Assembly: GCF_004337445.1 (NCBI RefSeq)
Contig: NZ_SJZB01000049.1
Coordinates: forward strand, 1-64,000
DNA length: 64,000 nucleotides
Direction: 5' to 3'
Origin: Parasulfuritortus cantonensis
GTDB taxonomy: Bacteria > Pseudomonadota > Gammaproteobacteria > Burkholderiales > Thiobacillaceae
Below, one piece after another: positions 7,708 to 64,000 of this stretch. The notes under the pieces are model-generated. The model saw only the letters and a list, made by a program, of their open reading frames with translations, was not told the origin of the DNA and ran no database searches. Every line of letters begins with the position of its first letter. The stretch's first letter is position 1. The translations under genes and the position numbers were made by a program.

Positions 7708-8331
7708 ATGTCGGCGCCACCGGATACGCCGCCCACCGCGCCGCGCGGGGCGGCCGGGTGGCGGCTGCTGGTCCGCATGGTGGTCCTGTCGGCGGCCGTG
7801 CACGGCGCCCTGATCACCCTGGTTCCGGCCCGCCGCTTCCCGTTTCTGGCCGACACCGTCGCCATCGACGCGCGTCTGGCGCCGGCCCCAGCGAAGGTCG
7901 CCACGCTGGCCAGCGTCCCGTCACCGGCGCCGGCCGCCGCGCCCGAGTCGCTTGCCGCCCGGCCGACCGGTATGGTGGCCCCGCCGGGGCGCGCCGCCCC
8001 GGCGCCGGTGGGACCGGCCCTCCCGATCGATACCAACTGGTATGAGGCCCGTCAGCTCGATGCCATGCCCGAACCGCTTGCCTGGGTCGCGCCGGACTAC
8101 CCGGCCGGCGCTCGGCAGCAGGGTCTGGAAGGATGGGTACGGCTCCGGTTGCGTATCGACGAGGCCGGGGTGGTGCGGCAACTGGAAGTGGTGGAGGCGC
8201 ATCCGCCCGGCGTGTTCGAAGACTCGGCGTTGGCGGCGTTCAGGCAACTCCGCTTCCGGCCCGCGCGCAAGGACGGCCGTCCGGTGCGCGTCCAGCTCGA
8301 CATGCCGGTGCGCTACCAACTCGGCGACTAG
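7708..8331 (+). CDS. TonB-family energy transducer
   Basis: 207 residues. The N-terminus is cytoplasmic with one membrane helix (about residues 22-42, L-V-R-M-V-V-L-S-A-A-V-H-G-A-L), then an Ala/Pro-rich periplasmic linker. The C-terminal TonB fold shows P-D-Y-P-A-G-A-R-Q-Q-G-L-E-G-W-V near residue 133 and R-Q-L-R-F-R-P-A. Such proteins transmit proton-motive force to outer-membrane receptors or act as envelope adaptors. No ExbB/ExbD genes are adjacent. The first about 60 linker residues have little similarity to a specific subfamily that I can name. Confidence 0.75.
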   Translation: MSAPPDTPPTAPRGAAGWRLLVRMVVLSAAVHGALITLVPARRFPFLADTVAIDARLAPAPAKVATLASVPSPAPAAAPESLAARPTGMVAPPGRAAPAPVGPALPIDTNWYEARQLDAMPEPLAWVAPDYPAGARQQGLEGWVRLRLRIDEAGVVRQLEVVEAHPPGVFEDSALAAFRQLRFRPARKDGRPVRVQLDMPVRYQLGD

Positions 8332-58048: not shown

Positions 58049-59122
58049 CTAGCGCAGGTAGACTTCGACCCGGCGGTTCTTCACCTCGGCCGTCTCCGGC
58101 GGCGTCTGCACCAGGAGTTGGCGTTGCCCGAAGGATTCCACCTCCAGGTGTTCGATGCCCGCATACGCGGCACGAATCCGCTTGGCGACGTAGTCGGCGC
58201 GTTTCTGGGCCAGCTTGTCGTTGAATTTCTCCGTGCCGACCGTGTCGGTATGGCCCTGCAAGGTCAGTTCCGGCAGGGGCCGGTCGTGCAGGTCGGCGAG
58301 CAGGGCGGCCAGCGCCTGCTCGGAATCCGCGTTCAGCTTGGTCGAGCCGGTCTCGAAGAACAGGGTCACGTGGCTGGGCAGGGGCGGACGCGCGTCCAGG
58401 GCGGCGCCGAAGTCCTGCCGCACCTGCTCGGCTCCGGCCTCGAACGTGGCGTAATTGCCCGGGTCCATGCGCAGCGCCTCGAGATTCTGGTCCAGGACGG
58501 TCGTGCCGTGCGCGTCGGTGACCATGATCTTGCCGGTCTTGCCATCCGGGTTTTCCAGCAGGACGACGTAGGTCCGCGTGGGCAGGCCGGCCTGCTTGGC
58601 CTCGGCCAGGGTGGTCAGCAGGGTCCCGAAGTCGCCCGTGATCTGCCCCGGCGTGGCGGTGAACGGGGCGTAGGAGTAGCCGTCCATGAGCATGGCCCGG
58701 CCGGGTTCCTCCAGGCGGTAGCTGCGCTCGCCGACGCTCACGCCCAGGTAGCCGGCCGCCTGGCCGGCTTCCGGGGCGAGCAGCACCACATATGAGTGCG
58801 ACAAGGGCGGCAAGCCTTGCTGCAGGATCTCGTGCATGGCCGCCAGGGCGGCGCCGAAGTCGCTCTGGATGCGGTCGTCGCTGACCCGCGGCACGGTGAT
58901 GAAGCCGCGTTCGACCTGGCCGCCGAAGCCGGCCGCCGGAATGCCGTAGACGCCGTCGGCATTGTGAATCTGGGCGCGGTTGTCTTCCGGCACTTCACTG
59001 GGCAGCGGGTTCTGCAGGACCACGACCTCGGTGCCGGCGAGGGCGGGGACGGCCAGGCCGTACAGGGCCGTGACAAGCAGGGCGCGCAGGCGCGCCGACA
59101 GGGTAGGGCATGACGTGGGCAT
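58049..59122 (-). CDS. OmpA-family envelope protein
   Basis: 357 residues with a signal peptide (A-L-A-G-T near 30). Residues about 30-230 have no named domain; a pattern V-V-V-L-Q-N-P-, V-V-L-L-A-P-E-, V-V-L-L-E-N-P-D-G-K recurs three times at about 90-residue spacing, suggesting repeated beta units. The C-terminal OmpA peptidoglycan-binding domain (F-F-E-T-G-S-T-K-L-N-A-D-S, L-T-L-Q-G-H-T-D-T-V-G, N-R-R-V-E) is complete. It lies 13 bp after the FecR gene on the same strand, so the pair forms one envelope operon. Confidence 0.85.
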   Translation of the reverse strand: MPTSCPTLSARLRALLVTALYGLAVPALAGTEVVVLQNPLPSEVPEDNRAQIHNADGVYGIPAAGFGGQVERGFITVPRVSDDRIQSDFGAALAAMHEILQQGLPPLSHSYVVLLAPEAGQAAGYLGVSVGERSYRLEEPGRAMLMDGYSYAPFTATPGQITGDFGTLLTTLAEAKQAGLPTRTYVVLLENPDGKTGKIMVTDAHGTTVLDQNLEALRMDPGNYATFEAGAEQVRQDFGAALDARPPLPSHVTLFFETGSTKLNADSEQALAALLADLHDRPLPELTLQGHTDTVGTEKFNDKLAQKRADYVAKRIRAAYAGIEHLEVESFGQRQLLVQTPPETAEVKNRRVEVYLR

Positions 59123-59135
59123 GTCGGGCTCCCGG

Positions 59136-59582
59136 TTACTGGTTGTCGACCTTGATGGCGAAGTGCGAACCGCGTACGCCGACGCTGCCGGTCGGGGTCT
59201 TCAGCATCACGCCGCCCGGGTTCTGCTTGGCGATGGCGCCGGCCAGGTAGGCCAGGGTGCCTTTCTCCAGGGTGGCGTCGAGCTTGAACTCGCCATGGCT
59301 CGGGGCATAGGCGTAGTCGACCAGGCTGAGCGCGCTGCCCGGCCCGACCGAGAGCACGGTATTGTCCTTGAACACGATGCCGAGCGAGGCGCCGGAACCG
59401 GTTTCGATCCGGGTGCCGGCGCTCACCGGGGCGTCGGCCGCCGCCGGGCTGCGCTGGCCGTCGACGGTCAGGTAGGCGTCGCCGTGCAGGGCGCGGACGT
59501 AGCCGGCCACGTCGGCGGCGAGGACGGAGCTGGTACTTAGGCCCAGCAGGATGATGGCCAAGGCGAGTTTGCGGGTGTTCAA
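59136..59582 (-). CDS. FecR-domain periplasmic protein
   Basis: 148 residues. Start TTG 59582 with GAGGAG 8 bp upstream. Signal peptide (ends V-L-A-A-D), then a FecR-type beta domain (G-T-R-I-E-T-G-S-G-A-S-L-G-I-V-F-K-D-N-T-V-L-S-V-G), ending V-K-T-P-T-G-S-V-G-V-R-G-S-H-F. It lacks a cytoplasmic or TM part, unlike classical FecR anti-sigma factors, so it is a free periplasmic or surface FecR protein. Divergent from the cyclase across a 238-bp gap. A close paralogue starts at the right edge. Confidence 0.82.
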   Translation of the reverse strand: MNTRKLALAIILLGLSTSSVLAADVAGYVRALHGDAYLTVDGQRSPAAADAPVSAGTRIETGSGASLGIVFKDNTVLSVGPGSALSLVDYAYAPSHGEFKLDATLEKGTLAYLAGAIAKQNPGGVMLKTPTGSVGVRGSHFAIKVDNQ

Positions 59583-59638
59583 GACGGTTTCTCCTCTGCG
59601 GGCTGCAACGAGGCAGCAGTAATTGACGGCGACCGACC

Positions 59639-59653
59639 GGCACATCGTGTGCC
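59639..59653. promoter_or_regulatory. Operator-like palindrome GGCACA-TCG-TGTGCC
   Basis: A perfect 6-bp inverted repeat with a 3-nt centre in the divergent FecR/cyclase gap, upstream of both genes. It is not the CRP consensus. An AT-rich stretch (59695-59745) with TAATAAT-like -10 candidates for the cyclase follows. Assigned as an operator only by position and symmetry. Confidence 0.35.
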
Positions 59654-59819
59654 CGCCGCGCCTGCTTGCCCAGGGCTCCTTGTTCGCCATCCGAATAGTT
59701 GAATGAAATGGCATGTTTTTTCGAGTAATAATACATAAAACGGTCCCGTGTCGATATCTCAAGATCGCCAGGGGGTGTGTCCCAACCTGACGCGGCGCCG
59801 AGCCCCTGACGAGTCCTCC

Positions 59820-61952
59820 ATGACCCTGCCCAAACCGAACCCGGGTTGGCTGATCCCGATTGCGGCCGTCCTGGCCGGCATCGCGCTCTACCTGATCGAT
59901 CCGCTGCCCCTGCAGGGCCTGCGCAACAACGTCTTCGACCAGTACCAGCGCTGGAAACCCCGCCAGTACGAGCCGGTCCCGGTTCGCGTCATCGACATCG
60001 ACGACGAGAGCCTGGCCCGGCTCGGACAATGGCCCTGGCCGCGCACCCGCATCGCCGAGCTGATCGACCGCCTGCGCGCCGCCGGTGCCGCGTCCATCGC
60101 CTTCGACGTCATGTTCGCCGAGCCGGACCGGACCTCCCCGTCCGCCATCGAGAAGGTCTGGCGTCCGGATGCGGACCTGAGCCGCCGCCTGGCGGCGCTG
60201 CCCGACCACGACGCCGTGCTGGCCCGCACGCTGTCGGCCGGCGGCGTCGTGCTCGGCCACGCCCTGTTGCGCAAGGGGACACCGCCGGCCCACTTCGCGA
60301 CCCCGTTCCGGGTGGTCGAGGTGGGCGGATCGCCACTGCCCTACCTGCCGGCGTTCCAGGGCACGGTGGCGGCGCTGCCGGAACTCCAGGACGCCGCAGC
60401 GGGCAATGGCGCGATCACCTTCATCCCGGATTCGGACGGCGTCGTGCGGCGGGTTCCGCTGCTCTTCGACCTGGGCGGCAAGCCGATTCCCTCGCTGGTC
60501 GCCGAGGCGTTGCGCGTCGGTCAGGGGGCGCGCAACCTGATGGTCAAGACCGATGCCGAGGCGGGCACCGGCATCCAGTCCGTACGCATCGGTGCCTTCG
60601 AGGTCCCGACCAATGCCTCCGGCCAGGTCTGGGTGCATTACACGCGTCCGGTCGCCGGCCGTTACATCCCGGCCTGGAAGGTCTTCGCGGGGCAGGTGCC
60701 GGCGGCCCAGCTGGAGGGCCACGTGCTGCTCGTCGGCACCTCCGCGCAGGGGTTGATGGACCTGCGCTTCAGCCCGCTCGGCGGTCTGATTCCGGGGGTG
60801 GAAAGCCATGCCCAGGCGATCGAGGAGATCCTACTCGGCAGCCACCTGTCGCGACCCAACTGGGCGCCCGGCCTGGAGATGCTGGGCATCCTGTTCGGCG
60901 GCCTGCTGGTCGGATTCATCGGCCTGTCGGCGGGGGCCATCCTGTCGGCGGCGGCGGCAATGGTCACCATCACCGTCACCGGGGCCGCCAGCTGGTACGC
61001 CTATGCCGAGCACGGCCTGCTGCTCGATCCGGTGACCCCGGCGCTGGTCCTGCTCGTCATCTTCATCCTGGCCAGCATCCACCACCACGCCACCGCCGAA
61101 CGGCGCCAGCGCTGGGTCAAGCGCGCCTTCTCGCGCTACGTCTCGCCCAACCTGGTGAGCTATCTGGTCGACAACCCGAACCACCTCGAACTGGGTGGCG
61201 TGCGGCGCGAATGCAGCTTCATCTTCACCGACCTGGCCGGCTTCACCAACCTGATGGAGAAACTCGACCCGGCCGAGGCGGTGGCCCTGCTGAACGACTA
61301 CCTGGACAGCATGATCCACATCGCCTTCGAGCATGACGGCACCCTCGACCGCATCGTCGGCGACGCCGTGGCGATCATGTTCTCGGCGCCCGTCGAGCAG
61401 CCGGACCACCGCCAGCGGGCGATGACCTGCGCGGTCGCCATGCACCGCTTCGCCCAGCGCCACGCGGCCGCCGCGAACGCGCGCGGGGTCCCGTTCGGGG
61501 CCACCCGGATCGGCATCCATACCGGCGAGGTGACGGTCGGCAACTTCGGCGGCTCGACCATATTCGACTACCGGGCCCTCGGCGACCCGGTCAACACGGC
61601 CTCCCGCCTGGAGAGCGTGAACAAGCAGCTGGGCACCCTGGTGTGCGTGTCCGAGGCGACCCTGTCCGGCTGTGTCGGCACGGTGGCGCGGCCGGTCGGC
61701 AAGCTGGTGCTGAAGGGCAAGAGCCTGCCCCTGATGGTCTACCAGCCCCTCATCCCCGACGCCGGCGAGTCGGCGCCGCCGGATCCCGAATACGAGGCCG
61801 CCTATCGCCGGATGGCGGCCGGCGACCCCGCCGCCCTGGCCACCTTCGAGGCCCTGGCCGAGGCGCGTCCGGACGACCCGCTGGTGCGTTTCCACCTGGG
61901 CCGTCTGCACAAGGGCCAGACCGGCGACGTCATCACCTTCACGGAGAAATAA
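59820..61952 (+). CDS. CHASE2-type membrane class III adenylate/guanylate cyclase
   Basis: About 710 residues. One N-terminal helix (W-L-I-P-I-A-A-V-L-A-G), a CHASE2 extracytoplasmic domain (about 30-345: V-R-V-I-D-I-D-D-E-S-L, F-D-V-M-F-A-E-P-D, ends before I-P-G-V-E-S-H-A-Q), three helices (about 360-425), then the catalytic domain. Metal Asp471 (F-T-D-L-A-G-F-T) and Asp515 (G-D-A-V-A), Asp583 in F-D-Y-R-A-L-G, and transition-state Asn592 and Arg596 (V-N-T-A-S-R-L-E) are all intact, so it should be active; Asp583 suggests ATP. ATG 59820 preferred over an earlier in-frame GTG. Its product likely feeds the CNB protein downstream. Confidence 0.88.
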   Translation: MTLPKPNPGWLIPIAAVLAGIALYLIDPLPLQGLRNNVFDQYQRWKPRQYEPVPVRVIDIDDESLARLGQWPWPRTRIAELIDRLRAAGAASIAFDVMFAEPDRTSPSAIEKVWRPDADLSRRLAALPDHDAVLARTLSAGGVVLGHALLRKGTPPAHFATPFRVVEVGGSPLPYLPAFQGTVAALPELQDAAAGNGAITFIPDSDGVVRRVPLLFDLGGKPIPSLVAEALRVGQGARNLMVKTDAEAGTGIQSVRIGAFEVPTNASGQVWVHYTRPVAGRYIPAWKVFAGQVPAAQLEGHVLLVGTSAQGLMDLRFSPLGGLIPGVESHAQAIEEILLGSHLSRPNWAPGLEMLGILFGGLLVGFIGLSAGAILSAAAAMVTITVTGAASWYAYAEHGLLLDPVTPALVLLVIFILASIHHHATAERRQRWVKRAFSRYVSPNLVSYLVDNPNHLELGGVRRECSFIFTDLAGFTNLMEKLDPAEAVALLNDYLDSMIHIAFEHDGTLDRIVGDAVAIMFSAPVEQPDHRQRAMTCAVAMHRFAQRHAAAANARGVPFGATRIGIHTGEVTVGNFGGSTIFDYRALGDPVNTASRLESVNKQLGTLVCVSEATLSGCVGTVARPVGKLVLKGKSLPLMVYQPLIPDAGESAPPDPEYEAAYRRMAAGDPAALATFEALAEARPDDPLVRFHLGRLHKGQTGDVITFTEK

Positions 61953-61959
61953 CCGGCTC

Positions 61960-61981
61960 CGCCAGCGCGTTTCGGCTGGCG
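61960..61981 (+). terminator. Hairpin between cyclase and glutaminase
   Basis: CGCCAGC/GCTGGCG, 7-bp perfect stem with an 8-nt loop, 7 bp after the cyclase stop; only a short, mixed T/A tail follows. Weak terminator or transcript boundary, so the glutaminase may have its own promoter in the next 40 bp or be partly co-transcribed. Confidence 0.5.
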
Positions 61982-62027
61982 CGCTTATTGCGTAGTTTTA
62001 CTGTCATTCTTCCGGCTAGGAGGCCAT

Positions 62028-63851
62028 ATGCAGTCGCCGATCCAGACGTACCTCGAAAACCTCCACGGCCGGATCGCCGGCCTCGACGACGGTGCCCTCG
62101 CCAGCTACATCCCGGAGCTGACCAAGGCGGACCCGGCCTGGTTCGGCATCTGCCTGGTCACCCTCGACGGCGTGGCCTACTCGGTGGGGGATTTCTCGCG
62201 TCAGTTCACCATCCAGTCGATCTCCAAGCCGTTCGTCTACGCCACCGCGCTGGCCGACCGCGGCCGCGACTTCGTGCTGAGCAAGGTGGGCGTGGAGCCG
62301 AGCGGCGATGCCTTCAATTCGATCAGCCTGAATCCCCAAACTGGTGCGCCGCTGAACCCGATGATCAACGCTGGTGCAATCGCCACCGCCAGCCTGGTCG
62401 CGGGCGACACGCCGGAGGCACAATGGCAGCGCATCGAGAGCTCGATGTCCACCTTCGTGGGGCGCGACCTGAGCGTCGACGAGTCGGTGTACCGCTCGGA
62501 GAGCGAGACCGGCTTCCGCAACCGGGCCATCGCCTGGATGCTGAAGAACTTCGGCATCATCGACGGCGAGCCGATGGCTTCCCTGGAGAACTATTTCCGG
62601 CAGTGCTCGGTGCTGGTGGATTGCCGCGACCTCGCCTACATGGCGGCCACCCTGGCCAACGGCGGCGTCCATCCGCTCACCGGCAAGCGCGCGCTGCCGG
62701 CCGAGCACGTCGAGCGGGTACTCAGCGTCATGGCCACCTGCGGCATGTACGACTACGCGGGCAGCTGGCTGTACGAGGTCGGCATGCCGGCCAAGAGCGG
62801 CGTCGGCGGCGGCATCATCGCCGTGCTGCCGGGGCGTTTCGGCATCGGCATCTTCTCGCCGCGCCTGGACGAGAAGGGCAACAGCGTGCGCGGCATCGAG
62901 GTCTGCAAGCAGTTGTCGCGCGACTTCCACATGCACGTGTTCAGCCATGCCGGCCACCCGGCCATGGCGCTCGGGCGCGTCTACACCGGCGCCGATGCCC
63001 CCTCGCGGCGCCAGCCGGGCGCCGAGATGCGCGCCTGCCTGAACGCCCAGGCGCACCGCATCAAGTACCTCAGCCTGCACGGCTTCCTGGCCGTGGACGG
63101 CATCGAATACGTCATCCGGCGCATGCGGGAGATGGCGCCGGACACGCACAGCTTCATCCTCGACATGCACCAGGTGGCCGGGATATCGGAGAGCGCCGCG
63201 CGTCTGCTCAACCAGGCCCGGCGGCAATTCGCCCGCGACGACATCGCGGTGGTGTTCTCGCGCATCCACGAGCGGCCGGCCATCATCGAGCCGTTGCGCA
63301 AGTCGGCCGGGCCGGACGACCACGGCTACCTCAGCTTCGAGGACAACGACCTGGCCGTGGAATGGTGCGAGAACCGGCTCTACGGCGGCGCCGCCCATTA
63401 CGCCGACCGGCTCGGCTCCCTGGCCGAGTCGCCGCTCTTCGCGGGGGTGCCGGCGGAGCTGATGGCGCAGGTGGAGGCGGTGACGGGCACGGCGTCGTTC
63501 GCCGCGGGCGATGCCATCCTGGTGACCGGCCAGGCCGGCGACGGCCGCATCTTCTTCATCGAATCCGGCCAGGTCAGCATCCTGGTGCCGCTCCAGAACG
63601 GCGGCCACCAGCGCATCGCCTCGCTCGGCCCGGGCATGAACTTCGGCGAGATGGTGCTCCTGGGCCAGACCACGCGCAGCGCCTCGGTGCTCGCGGACAC
63701 CGAGGTGAAGTGCTGGATACTCGATACGGAGAACCTCGACCGGGTGGCGGCGGAGGCGCCGCAGCTGAAGATCGCGCTGTTGGAGAACCTGGCCCGCGAC
63801 ATGGCCAGCAAGCTGCGCCGCGCGACCCAGTGGATCAGCGCCCTGGCGTGA
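62028..63851 (+). CDS. Glutaminase A fused to STAS and cyclic-nucleotide-binding domains
   Basis: 607 residues. Glutaminase (about 1-310) with the catalytic Ser64 and Lys67 (Q-S-I-S-K-P), N-A-G-A-I, E-S-E-T-G-F-R-N-R and S-G-V-G-G-G; then a STAS-like domain (about 345-440, I-L-D-M-H-Q-V-A-G-I-S-E-S-A); then a CNB domain (about 470-595) whose ligand loop F-G-E-M-V-L-L-G-Q-T-T-R-S-A-S keeps Glu541 and Arg550, the residues that contact ribose and cyclic phosphate in CRP-like proteins. AGGAGG precedes ATG 62028. Converts Gln to Glu plus ammonia; the tail suggests control by cAMP or cGMP. Follows the cyclase. Confidence 0.88.
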   Translation: MQSPIQTYLENLHGRIAGLDDGALASYIPELTKADPAWFGICLVTLDGVAYSVGDFSRQFTIQSISKPFVYATALADRGRDFVLSKVGVEPSGDAFNSISLNPQTGAPLNPMINAGAIATASLVAGDTPEAQWQRIESSMSTFVGRDLSVDESVYRSESETGFRNRAIAWMLKNFGIIDGEPMASLENYFRQCSVLVDCRDLAYMAATLANGGVHPLTGKRALPAEHVERVLSVMATCGMYDYAGSWLYEVGMPAKSGVGGGIIAVLPGRFGIGIFSPRLDEKGNSVRGIEVCKQLSRDFHMHVFSHAGHPAMALGRVYTGADAPSRRQPGAEMRACLNAQAHRIKYLSLHGFLAVDGIEYVIRRMREMAPDTHSFILDMHQVAGISESAARLLNQARRQFARDDIAVVFSRIHERPAIIEPLRKSAGPDDHGYLSFEDNDLAVEWCENRLYGGAAHYADRLGSLAESPLFAGVPAELMAQVEAVTGTASFAAGDAILVTGQAGDGRIFFIESGQVSILVPLQNGGHQRIASLGPGMNFGEMVLLGQTTRSASVLADTEVKCWILDTENLDRVAAEAPQLKIALLENLARDMASKLRRATQWISALA

Positions 63852-63861
63852 GCGGGAACGA

Positions 63862-63885
63862 CCGGGCCGGCGTTGACCGGCCCGG
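63862..63885. terminator. 9-bp GC hairpin between convergent genes
   Basis: CCGGGCCGG, 6 nt, CCGGCCCGG between the glutaminase stop and the convergent FecR paralogue. No T-run; could act from both sides with Rho or simply be a stem. Confidence 0.4.
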
Positions 63886-63902
63886 CCCGGCCGGCGCCTG
63901 GA

Positions 63903-64000
63903 TCAGTCGGTCTCGACCTTGACGACGAAGTGGGTGCCGCGCACGCCGATGGTGCCGGTCGGGGTCTTCACCGCCACGGCGTCCGGCTTGATCTTGGCGA
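63903..64000 (-). CDS. Second FecR-domain protein (C-terminal fragment, runs off edge)
   Basis: The last 31 codons of a minus-strand gene are visible, stop at 63903. They read A-K-I-K-P-D-A-V-A-V-K-T-P-T-G-T-I-G-V-R-G-T-H-F-V-V-K-V-E, nearly the same as the end of the FecR protein at 59136 (K-T-P-T-G-S-V-G-V-R-G-S-H-F). It is a paralogue at the far side of the cyclase and glutaminase genes, oriented toward the latter. Nothing more can be said without the next sequence. Confidence 0.78.
   Translation of the reverse strand, partial: AKIKPDAVAVKTPTGTIGVRGTHFVVKVETD

Follow-up and report, generated by a model that had tools for sequence, protein, structure and literature searches.

The best-known targets of bacterial cyclic nucleotides are transcription factors, and to our knowledge direct control of a metabolic enzyme by such a messenger has rarely been documented in bacteria. 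In Campylobacterota, gene clusters encode a CHASE2 adenylate cyclase together with a FecR outer-membrane protein, a TPR protein and a phosphodiesterase, and these were proposed to form a single cAMP pathway (PMC9239204). The outer-membrane protein NsrA of S. meliloti acts upstream of the CHASE2 cyclases CyaD1, CyaD2 and CyaK, the CNB effector of this system is Clr, and Clr in turn targets, among others, the FecR gene SMc02177 (PMC13001267, PMC7529298, PMC5498481). The Burkholderia BiofilmReg operon combines a LysM-FecR protein with a CHASE2 histidine kinase (PMC5192318). The locus of Parasulfuritortus cantonensis analyzed here resembles the Campylobacterota clusters in that a CHASE2 class III cyclase is clustered with a FecR-domain envelope protein, but its putative effector is a glutaminase, an OmpA-family protein is present and neither a TPR nor a phosphodiesterase gene is found among the annotated neighbours. 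The order proposed from its sequence, from outer-membrane protein to CHASE2 cyclase to CNB effector, is that of the S. meliloti system, where the effector Clr is a transcription factor whereas here it would be a metabolic enzyme. With BiofilmReg the locus shares the pair formed by a FecR envelope protein and a CHASE2 receptor, the output there being a histidine kinase. The original prediction made from this DNA knew of no described pathway joining these parts. This has to be amended for the FecR-CHASE2-cyclase clusters, which have been described (PMC9239204), and stands for the glutaminase branch: we found no report of a glutaminase with a STAS or CNB domain, or of a receptor-tied CNB glutaminase, in the open-access literature searched, and glutaminase does not feature in a survey of CNB fusions (PMC2246266). 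Taken separately, both FecR-CHASE2-cyclase clusters and glutaminase-STAS proteins belong to known kinds.

The window, that is the whole stretch of DNA that was analyzed, comprises the first 64,000 nucleotides of a 120.6-kb contig (G000:C9:1-64000) of the 3.2-Mb draft genome of P. cantonensis. The closest matches to it that bear a name are MAGs with the labels Thiobacillus sp. and Gallionellaceae bacterium. On the minus strand, the gene of an exported OmpA-family protein with a C-terminal peptidoglycan-binding domain (58049..59122; Pfam PF00691, E 5.5e-13) lies 13 bp from the upstream gene of FecR1, an exported FecR-domain protein with a signal-peptide-like N-terminus (59136..~59585; PF04773, E 3.6e-9), and UbiA and UbiC are encoded on the far side of the OmpA gene. 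The OmpA-family protein (58049-59122) also carries three internal repeats of about 75 residues, N-terminal to the OmpA domain and centred around DFG at residues 88, 164 and 237. The plus strand encodes a CHASE2-class III nucleotide cyclase receptor (ORF 59748-61952, likely start at ATG 59820; PF05226, E 9e-59; PF00211 Guanylate_cyc, E 1e-18) and a glutaminase-STAS-CNB protein of 607 residues (62028..63851; PF04960, E 7e-122; STAS, E 9e-6; PF00027, E 1e-15). Promoter and terminator scans of the intergenic regions gave chance-level hits only, so the operon status of the cyclase and glutaminase genes rests on their shared strand and the 75-bp gap between them. A minus-strand gene at 63903-~64343 encodes a second FecR-domain protein, FecR2; it extends past the end of the window, which holds the part for the C-terminal end of the protein (63903..64000). 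The five genes that had been predicted were all found intact by ORF and Pfam analysis, in the order and on the strands proposed. The second FecR gene, which had been described as ending the window on the minus strand, is present, but it belongs to a group of minus-strand genes whose other members, encoding a CNB-SpoIIE phosphatase, an RsbW-like HATPase kinase and an RsbV-like STAS protein, follow it beyond the window end.

Residue alignment of the cyclase revealed the two metal-binding Asp and the transition-state Asn and Arg of class III cyclases, with the motifs FTDLAGFT, GDAV and VNTASR, in agreement with the earlier claim that all metal and transition-state residues are present. The closest PDB entries are Cya2/CyaB, and from what is known of the family this protein very probably makes a cyclic nucleotide. 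The first base-selecting position corresponds to E488 of the CHASE2-regulated guanylate cyclase Cya2, and the E488K substitution converts that enzyme into an adenylate cyclase (PMC5995499). With Lys plus Asp or Thr read as the ATP pattern, and Glu plus Cys or a similar residue as the GTP pattern, the window cyclase and its close relatives, one of which is deltaproteobacterial, have Arg at both base-selecting positions, so that the choice between ATP and GTP cannot be read from them. Four cyclases that are linked to the same kind of glutaminase in other genomes and are more distant or of another type (L051, L077, L098 and L105) have Lys with Thr or Ser, which is the adenylate pattern.

The glutaminase gene had been described as encoding a glutaminase with a CNB domain carrying Glu541 and Arg550. 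Both residues are where they were placed; a STAS domain (residues 354-418) between the glutaminase domain (1-306) and the CNB domain (490-575) had been overlooked. The glutaminase domain scores 406 bits against a family profile cut-off of 27 (PF04960). Membership of the serine-dependent glutaminases further calls for the catalytic Ser-x-x-Lys, Tyr, Asn and Glu, and nine putative active-site residues (Y27, S64, K67, N114, E158, N165, Y189, Y241 and V259), which we take to be equivalent to those of the human glutaminase active site, are conserved in 80 to 81 of 81 fusions. The CNB domain scores 57.6 bits against a cut-off of 27.5 (PF00027), and its phosphate-binding cassette, defined by the pattern G-E...R-[ST]-A, is present as G540, E541, R550, S551 and A552, as expected for a CNB domain that binds its ligand. 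Over the 81 fusions the conservation is 81/81 for G540, 80/81 for E541, 78/81 for R550, 77/81 for S/T551 and 81/81 for A556. The G/E/R/[ST]/A cassette as a whole is kept across phyla in all but 6 of the 81 copies, and G, E and R are intact in each of the 18 cyclase-linked copies. The three copies that have lost the cassette Arg are from Rhodococcus and have no CHASE2 gene nearby. By sequence, the solved chains closest to this domain are the CNB domains of PKG and PKA, and family knowledge makes it very likely that the domain binds a cyclic nucleotide.

An AlphaFold model of the whole glutaminase-STAS-CNB protein was obtained with a pLDDT of 89.6 and a pTM of 0.82. Since the VIA-align structural rows mostly cover residues 1-394, the assignment of the CNB fold rests on the sequence profiles and not on the structural search. 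Human GLS and GLS2 are multidomain, regulated enzymes with an ankyrin-repeat tail. Over the catalytic domain their fold is the same (38% identity, Z ~45, rmsd 1.7 A), but their regulatory tail is different and holds no cyclic-nucleotide domain. The salt-tolerant glutaminase Mglu of Micrococcus luteus (PDB 3ih8, 3if5, 3agd) matches residues 1-425, which comprise the glutaminase and STAS region, with Z ~47-48 and 41% identity; the rmsd of this match is about 11 A, indicating a different placement of the domains, and the Mglu chain of about 456 residues leaves no room for a CNB domain. The STAS-CNB tail (residues 319-604) is collinear with the tail of SulP transporters (28% identity, confirmed by Pfam in L007), in which the output is an anion transporter instead of a glutaminase.

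Within the order the fusion was found in about 6 of 300 genomes sampled, and of the 7 genomes of the genus 3 carry it together with the cyclase, the other 4 having neither. It is not a local oddity, a possibility ruled out by its wide distribution: the best 80 fusion loci come from Beta-, Gamma-, Alpha- and Deltaproteobacteria, Verrucomicrobiota and Rhodococcus, and almost all are full-length, the others running off contig ends. Of 83 distinct loci, with a total flank of 976 kb, 20 have a CHASE2 gene within 8 kb of the fusion, against about 0.5 expected by chance from a density of about 0.5 CHASE2 genes per Mb (48 in 24 genomes, ~90 Mb), a Poisson comparison that ignores kinship and draws on genomes most of which were chosen for linkage. 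In two of the 20 (L029 and L039) the CHASE2 match is weak and the catalytic motifs diverge; the conclusion is the same without them. A better view of the linkage is given by the tree of 18 linked and 33 unlinked testable loci, which requires about 12 state changes, at least 7 of them forced by strong branches. The CHASE2 gene is found in four arrangements, upstream or downstream of the fusion and on the same or the opposite strand, and the linkage spans Beta-, Gamma-, Alpha- and Deltaproteobacteria as well as Verrucomicrobiota. In L097, L098, L105 and L069 the linked gene is the sole CHASE2 gene of the genome; the genomes with this property are those of Tropicimonas sp. IMCC6043 and Pseudothioclava arenosa, a deltaproteobacterial MAG and a Rhodoferax MAG. 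Unfused glutaminases of the same order had no CHASE2 gene in flanks of up to ~10 kb (0 of 29), and an unbiased clustering of neighbouring ORFs placed the CHASE2 cyclase as the top real neighbour of the fusion (20 loci) and OmpA second (13 loci). Among the immediate neighbours of the cyclase-free fusions a Pfam tally found no recurrent partner apart from NHL-repeat (propeller) genes in 9 of 84, and none shared across phyla; synteny of their neighbours is mostly confined to Verrucomicrobiota. The CHASE2 cyclase is the one neighbour found repeatedly in different phyla. Chance adjacency is thus ruled out by the CHASE2 density, the unfused-glutaminase control and the tree, and the synteny check proposed with the original prediction came out in its favour: the cyclase and the fusion adjoin each other, in more than one arrangement, across proteobacterial classes and in Verrucomicrobiota far more often than chance would allow.

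The FecR and OmpA proteins had been given a place in the pathway as envelope sensors. Their genes also accompany cyclases of the same type with no adjoining glutaminase (L145, L149 and L161-L166), and the CHASE2 domain of the window has an adjoining FecR envelope gene, the combination by which such a receptor is defined. Beside FecR and OmpA we also observed CHASE2 fused to a SpoIIE phosphatase (L152:6258-8498 and L153:6315-8546, the latter by profile) and to an HD domain (L155:6249-8252). Glutaminase-specific partnership of FecR and OmpA was therefore rejected, because both accompany CHASE2 with cyclase-only, SpoIIE and HD outputs. Their occurrence with CHASE2 proteins that lack an adjoining glutaminase or have other outputs indicates that they are components of the receptor, which agrees with the FecR-CHASE2 clusters described elsewhere (PMC9239204, PMC5192318) and with NsrA of S. 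meliloti (PMC13001267, PMC7529298). Their part in the pathway is thus retained as partners of CHASE2, and as belonging to the receptor and not to the glutaminase.

We propose that FecR and OmpA, in the periplasm or outer envelope, would act with the CHASE2 domain in sensing a cue from the envelope or from outside the cell, and that the CHASE2 cyclase would then make a 3',5'-cyclic nucleotide in the cytoplasm. This nucleotide would bind the glutaminase, encoded in the same direction, at its C-terminal CNB domain and, via the STAS domain, alter the activity or the oligomer state of the enzyme, and the hydrolysis of glutamine to glutamate and ammonia would thereby track the cue. The domain architecture, the intact catalytic and binding residues, the recurrent cross-phylum linkage and the receptor identity of FecR and OmpA are legible in the sequences themselves. 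Where both genes are present their linkage makes the adjacent cyclase the probable input, and the pathway as a whole, from envelope cue to altered glutaminase activity, seems to us reasonably likely. The signalling chain that was first read from the locus is partly supported by the linkage, by the conserved CNB pocket of the linked copies and by the pairing of FecR/OmpA with CHASE2, and has to be qualified in that adjacency is facultative. As for the sign of regulation, we slightly favour, as a speculation, relief of autoinhibition.

An alternative is a looser connection, in which the CHASE2 cyclase would feed the cellular cyclic-nucleotide pool, with Crp-family regulators or other CNB proteins as its main readers, and the glutaminase would respond to this pool wherever it is encoded. 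No CHASE2 gene is found within several kb in 33 of the 51 fusion loci with adequate flanks; Rhodococcus, most Verrucomicrobia and others have the fusion without it; of the genomes with a cyclase of this type, most have no fusion; and 15 CNB matches in the P. cantonensis genome are possible true receivers. In one genome (L025, G009:C8:92000-101041) the glutaminase gene is reduced to the remains of its CNB part (about 7831-8190; 66% identity, two stops), which lie between OmpA and a cyclase gene that extends past the contig end; the cyclase, FecR, OmpA and the RsbV, RsbW and CNB-SpoIIE genes persist. Facultative linkage and this decay with the receptor kept indicate that glutaminase and receptor are separable. 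A general pool would not, however, account for the excess of linked loci over the chance expectation with repeated independent arrangements, or for the several genomes that carry their single CHASE2 gene beside the fusion, and we regard it as unlikely. Even less probable is that the CNB domain has ceased to sense nucleotides and serves as a structural or oligomerisation tail only, like that of several CNB proteins in which the pocket is degenerate. The loss of the pocket Arg in the Rhodococcus copies and its absence from the neighbouring CNB-SpoIIE protein would fit such a role, which we nonetheless judge very improbable given the conservation of the cassette across phyla and its intact G, E and R in every cyclase-linked copy.

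The STAS domain could instead be the regulated element, phosphorylated and dephosphorylated by the RsbW-like kinase and the SpoIIE phosphatase encoded just past the window. Genes for RsbV, RsbW and CNB-SpoIIE lie close to the fusion in G000, G002, G004 and L052, and CNB-less glutaminases adjoin RsbV/RsbW genes in L121, L130 and L135. Hardly any other fusion locus has this module, however, and most of the cyclase-linked loci are without it, and a phosphorylatable Ser/Thr is not maintained in the fused STAS domain: at the phospho-serine position the 81 copies have Glu (20), Asp (15), Ser (11), Pro (8), Arg (6), Leu (5) or Thr (4), whereas the stand-alone RsbV retains Ser. Such a phospho-switch is accordingly disfavoured, and partner switching appears quite improbable as an explanation of the fusion. 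The three CNB-less glutaminases (L121, L130 and L135) belong to a subfamily nearer the fusion, adjoin stand-alone RsbV-like STAS and RsbW-like kinase genes, and are possibly partner-switched glutaminases. The neighbouring CNB-SpoIIE protein was considered as a second receiver of the messenger and rejected, its cassette Arg being replaced by Thr in the copies read by eye. In the P. cantonensis contig the CNB-SpoIIE ORF (L022:9835-11619, contig 63835-65619, minus strand) has no stop after the SpoIIE domain, runs out of frame through FecR2 and ends at the glutaminase 3' end, and in the related L027 it stops at the domain end; the read-through may reflect a late frameshift or a lost stop.

Control of the glutaminase by the adjacent receptor may be one instance of a broader arrangement. 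In a small sample of 17 genomes with window-type cyclases, found independently of glutaminase, 6 have a CNB gene with an intact cassette nearby, where about 1.1 would be expected for any CNB gene at 4 per Mb. These neighbours include a CNB-EAL protein encoded 84 bp after the cyclase (L160), CNB-patatin proteins (L162 and L163), a CNB protein with an unannotated C-terminal part (L145), a SulP-STAS-CNB protein (L177) and a short CNB protein of 159 residues (L178). In a Dechloromonas MAG (L040), one strand carries in succession the genes for glutaminase-STAS-CNB, FecR, OmpA, a CHASE2 cyclase and a Na+/H+ exchanger whose CNB cassette is intact. Because this run includes an exchanger with its own CNB domain, we favour, speculatively, ionic, pH or osmotic homeostasis as the purpose of the system. 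Since receptors of the same type adjoin other CNB fusions (EAL, patatin, Na+/H+ exchanger and SulP), the glutaminase seems to be one effector among several, and swappable effectors are a lead rather than a result. A more far-reaching version is that FecR-OmpA-CHASE2 cyclases are general plug-in receptors, each with a messenger for which CNB-fused enzymes or transporters encoded nearby serve as interchangeable readers (glutaminase, EAL phosphodiesterase, patatin phospholipase, Na+/H+ exchanger, SulP), with the Arg/Arg subtype making a messenger other than cAMP that directly switches the glutaminase; we put this forward tentatively, as doubtful though conceivable. The CNB protein of L145 (5450-6568) and one of L065 (3123-4196), both encoded beside FecR-OmpA-CHASE2 cyclases, have a similar C-terminal region of about 200 residues that has no Pfam match. 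A CNB-DUF294 protein (L161) has a degenerate cassette, as has, by eye, a protein with a CNB domain and a Ser/Thr protein-kinase-like domain in a PKG-like order, encoded about 3 kb from a CHASE2 cyclase (L169:129-1652).

If confirmed, the system would be a second-messenger-switched glutaminase tied to a known type of envelope receptor, and would link a cue at the cell surface directly, and in a testable way, to ammonia and glutamate. CHASE2 receptors, the cues of which are mostly unknown, would gain a simple enzymatic read-out, and the system suggests a rule by which further effectors may be sought, namely among CNB-fused genes beside FecR-OmpA-CHASE2 cyclases. In all, the recurrent linkage in unrelated bacteria suggests that surface signals directly tune the production of ammonia and glutamate.
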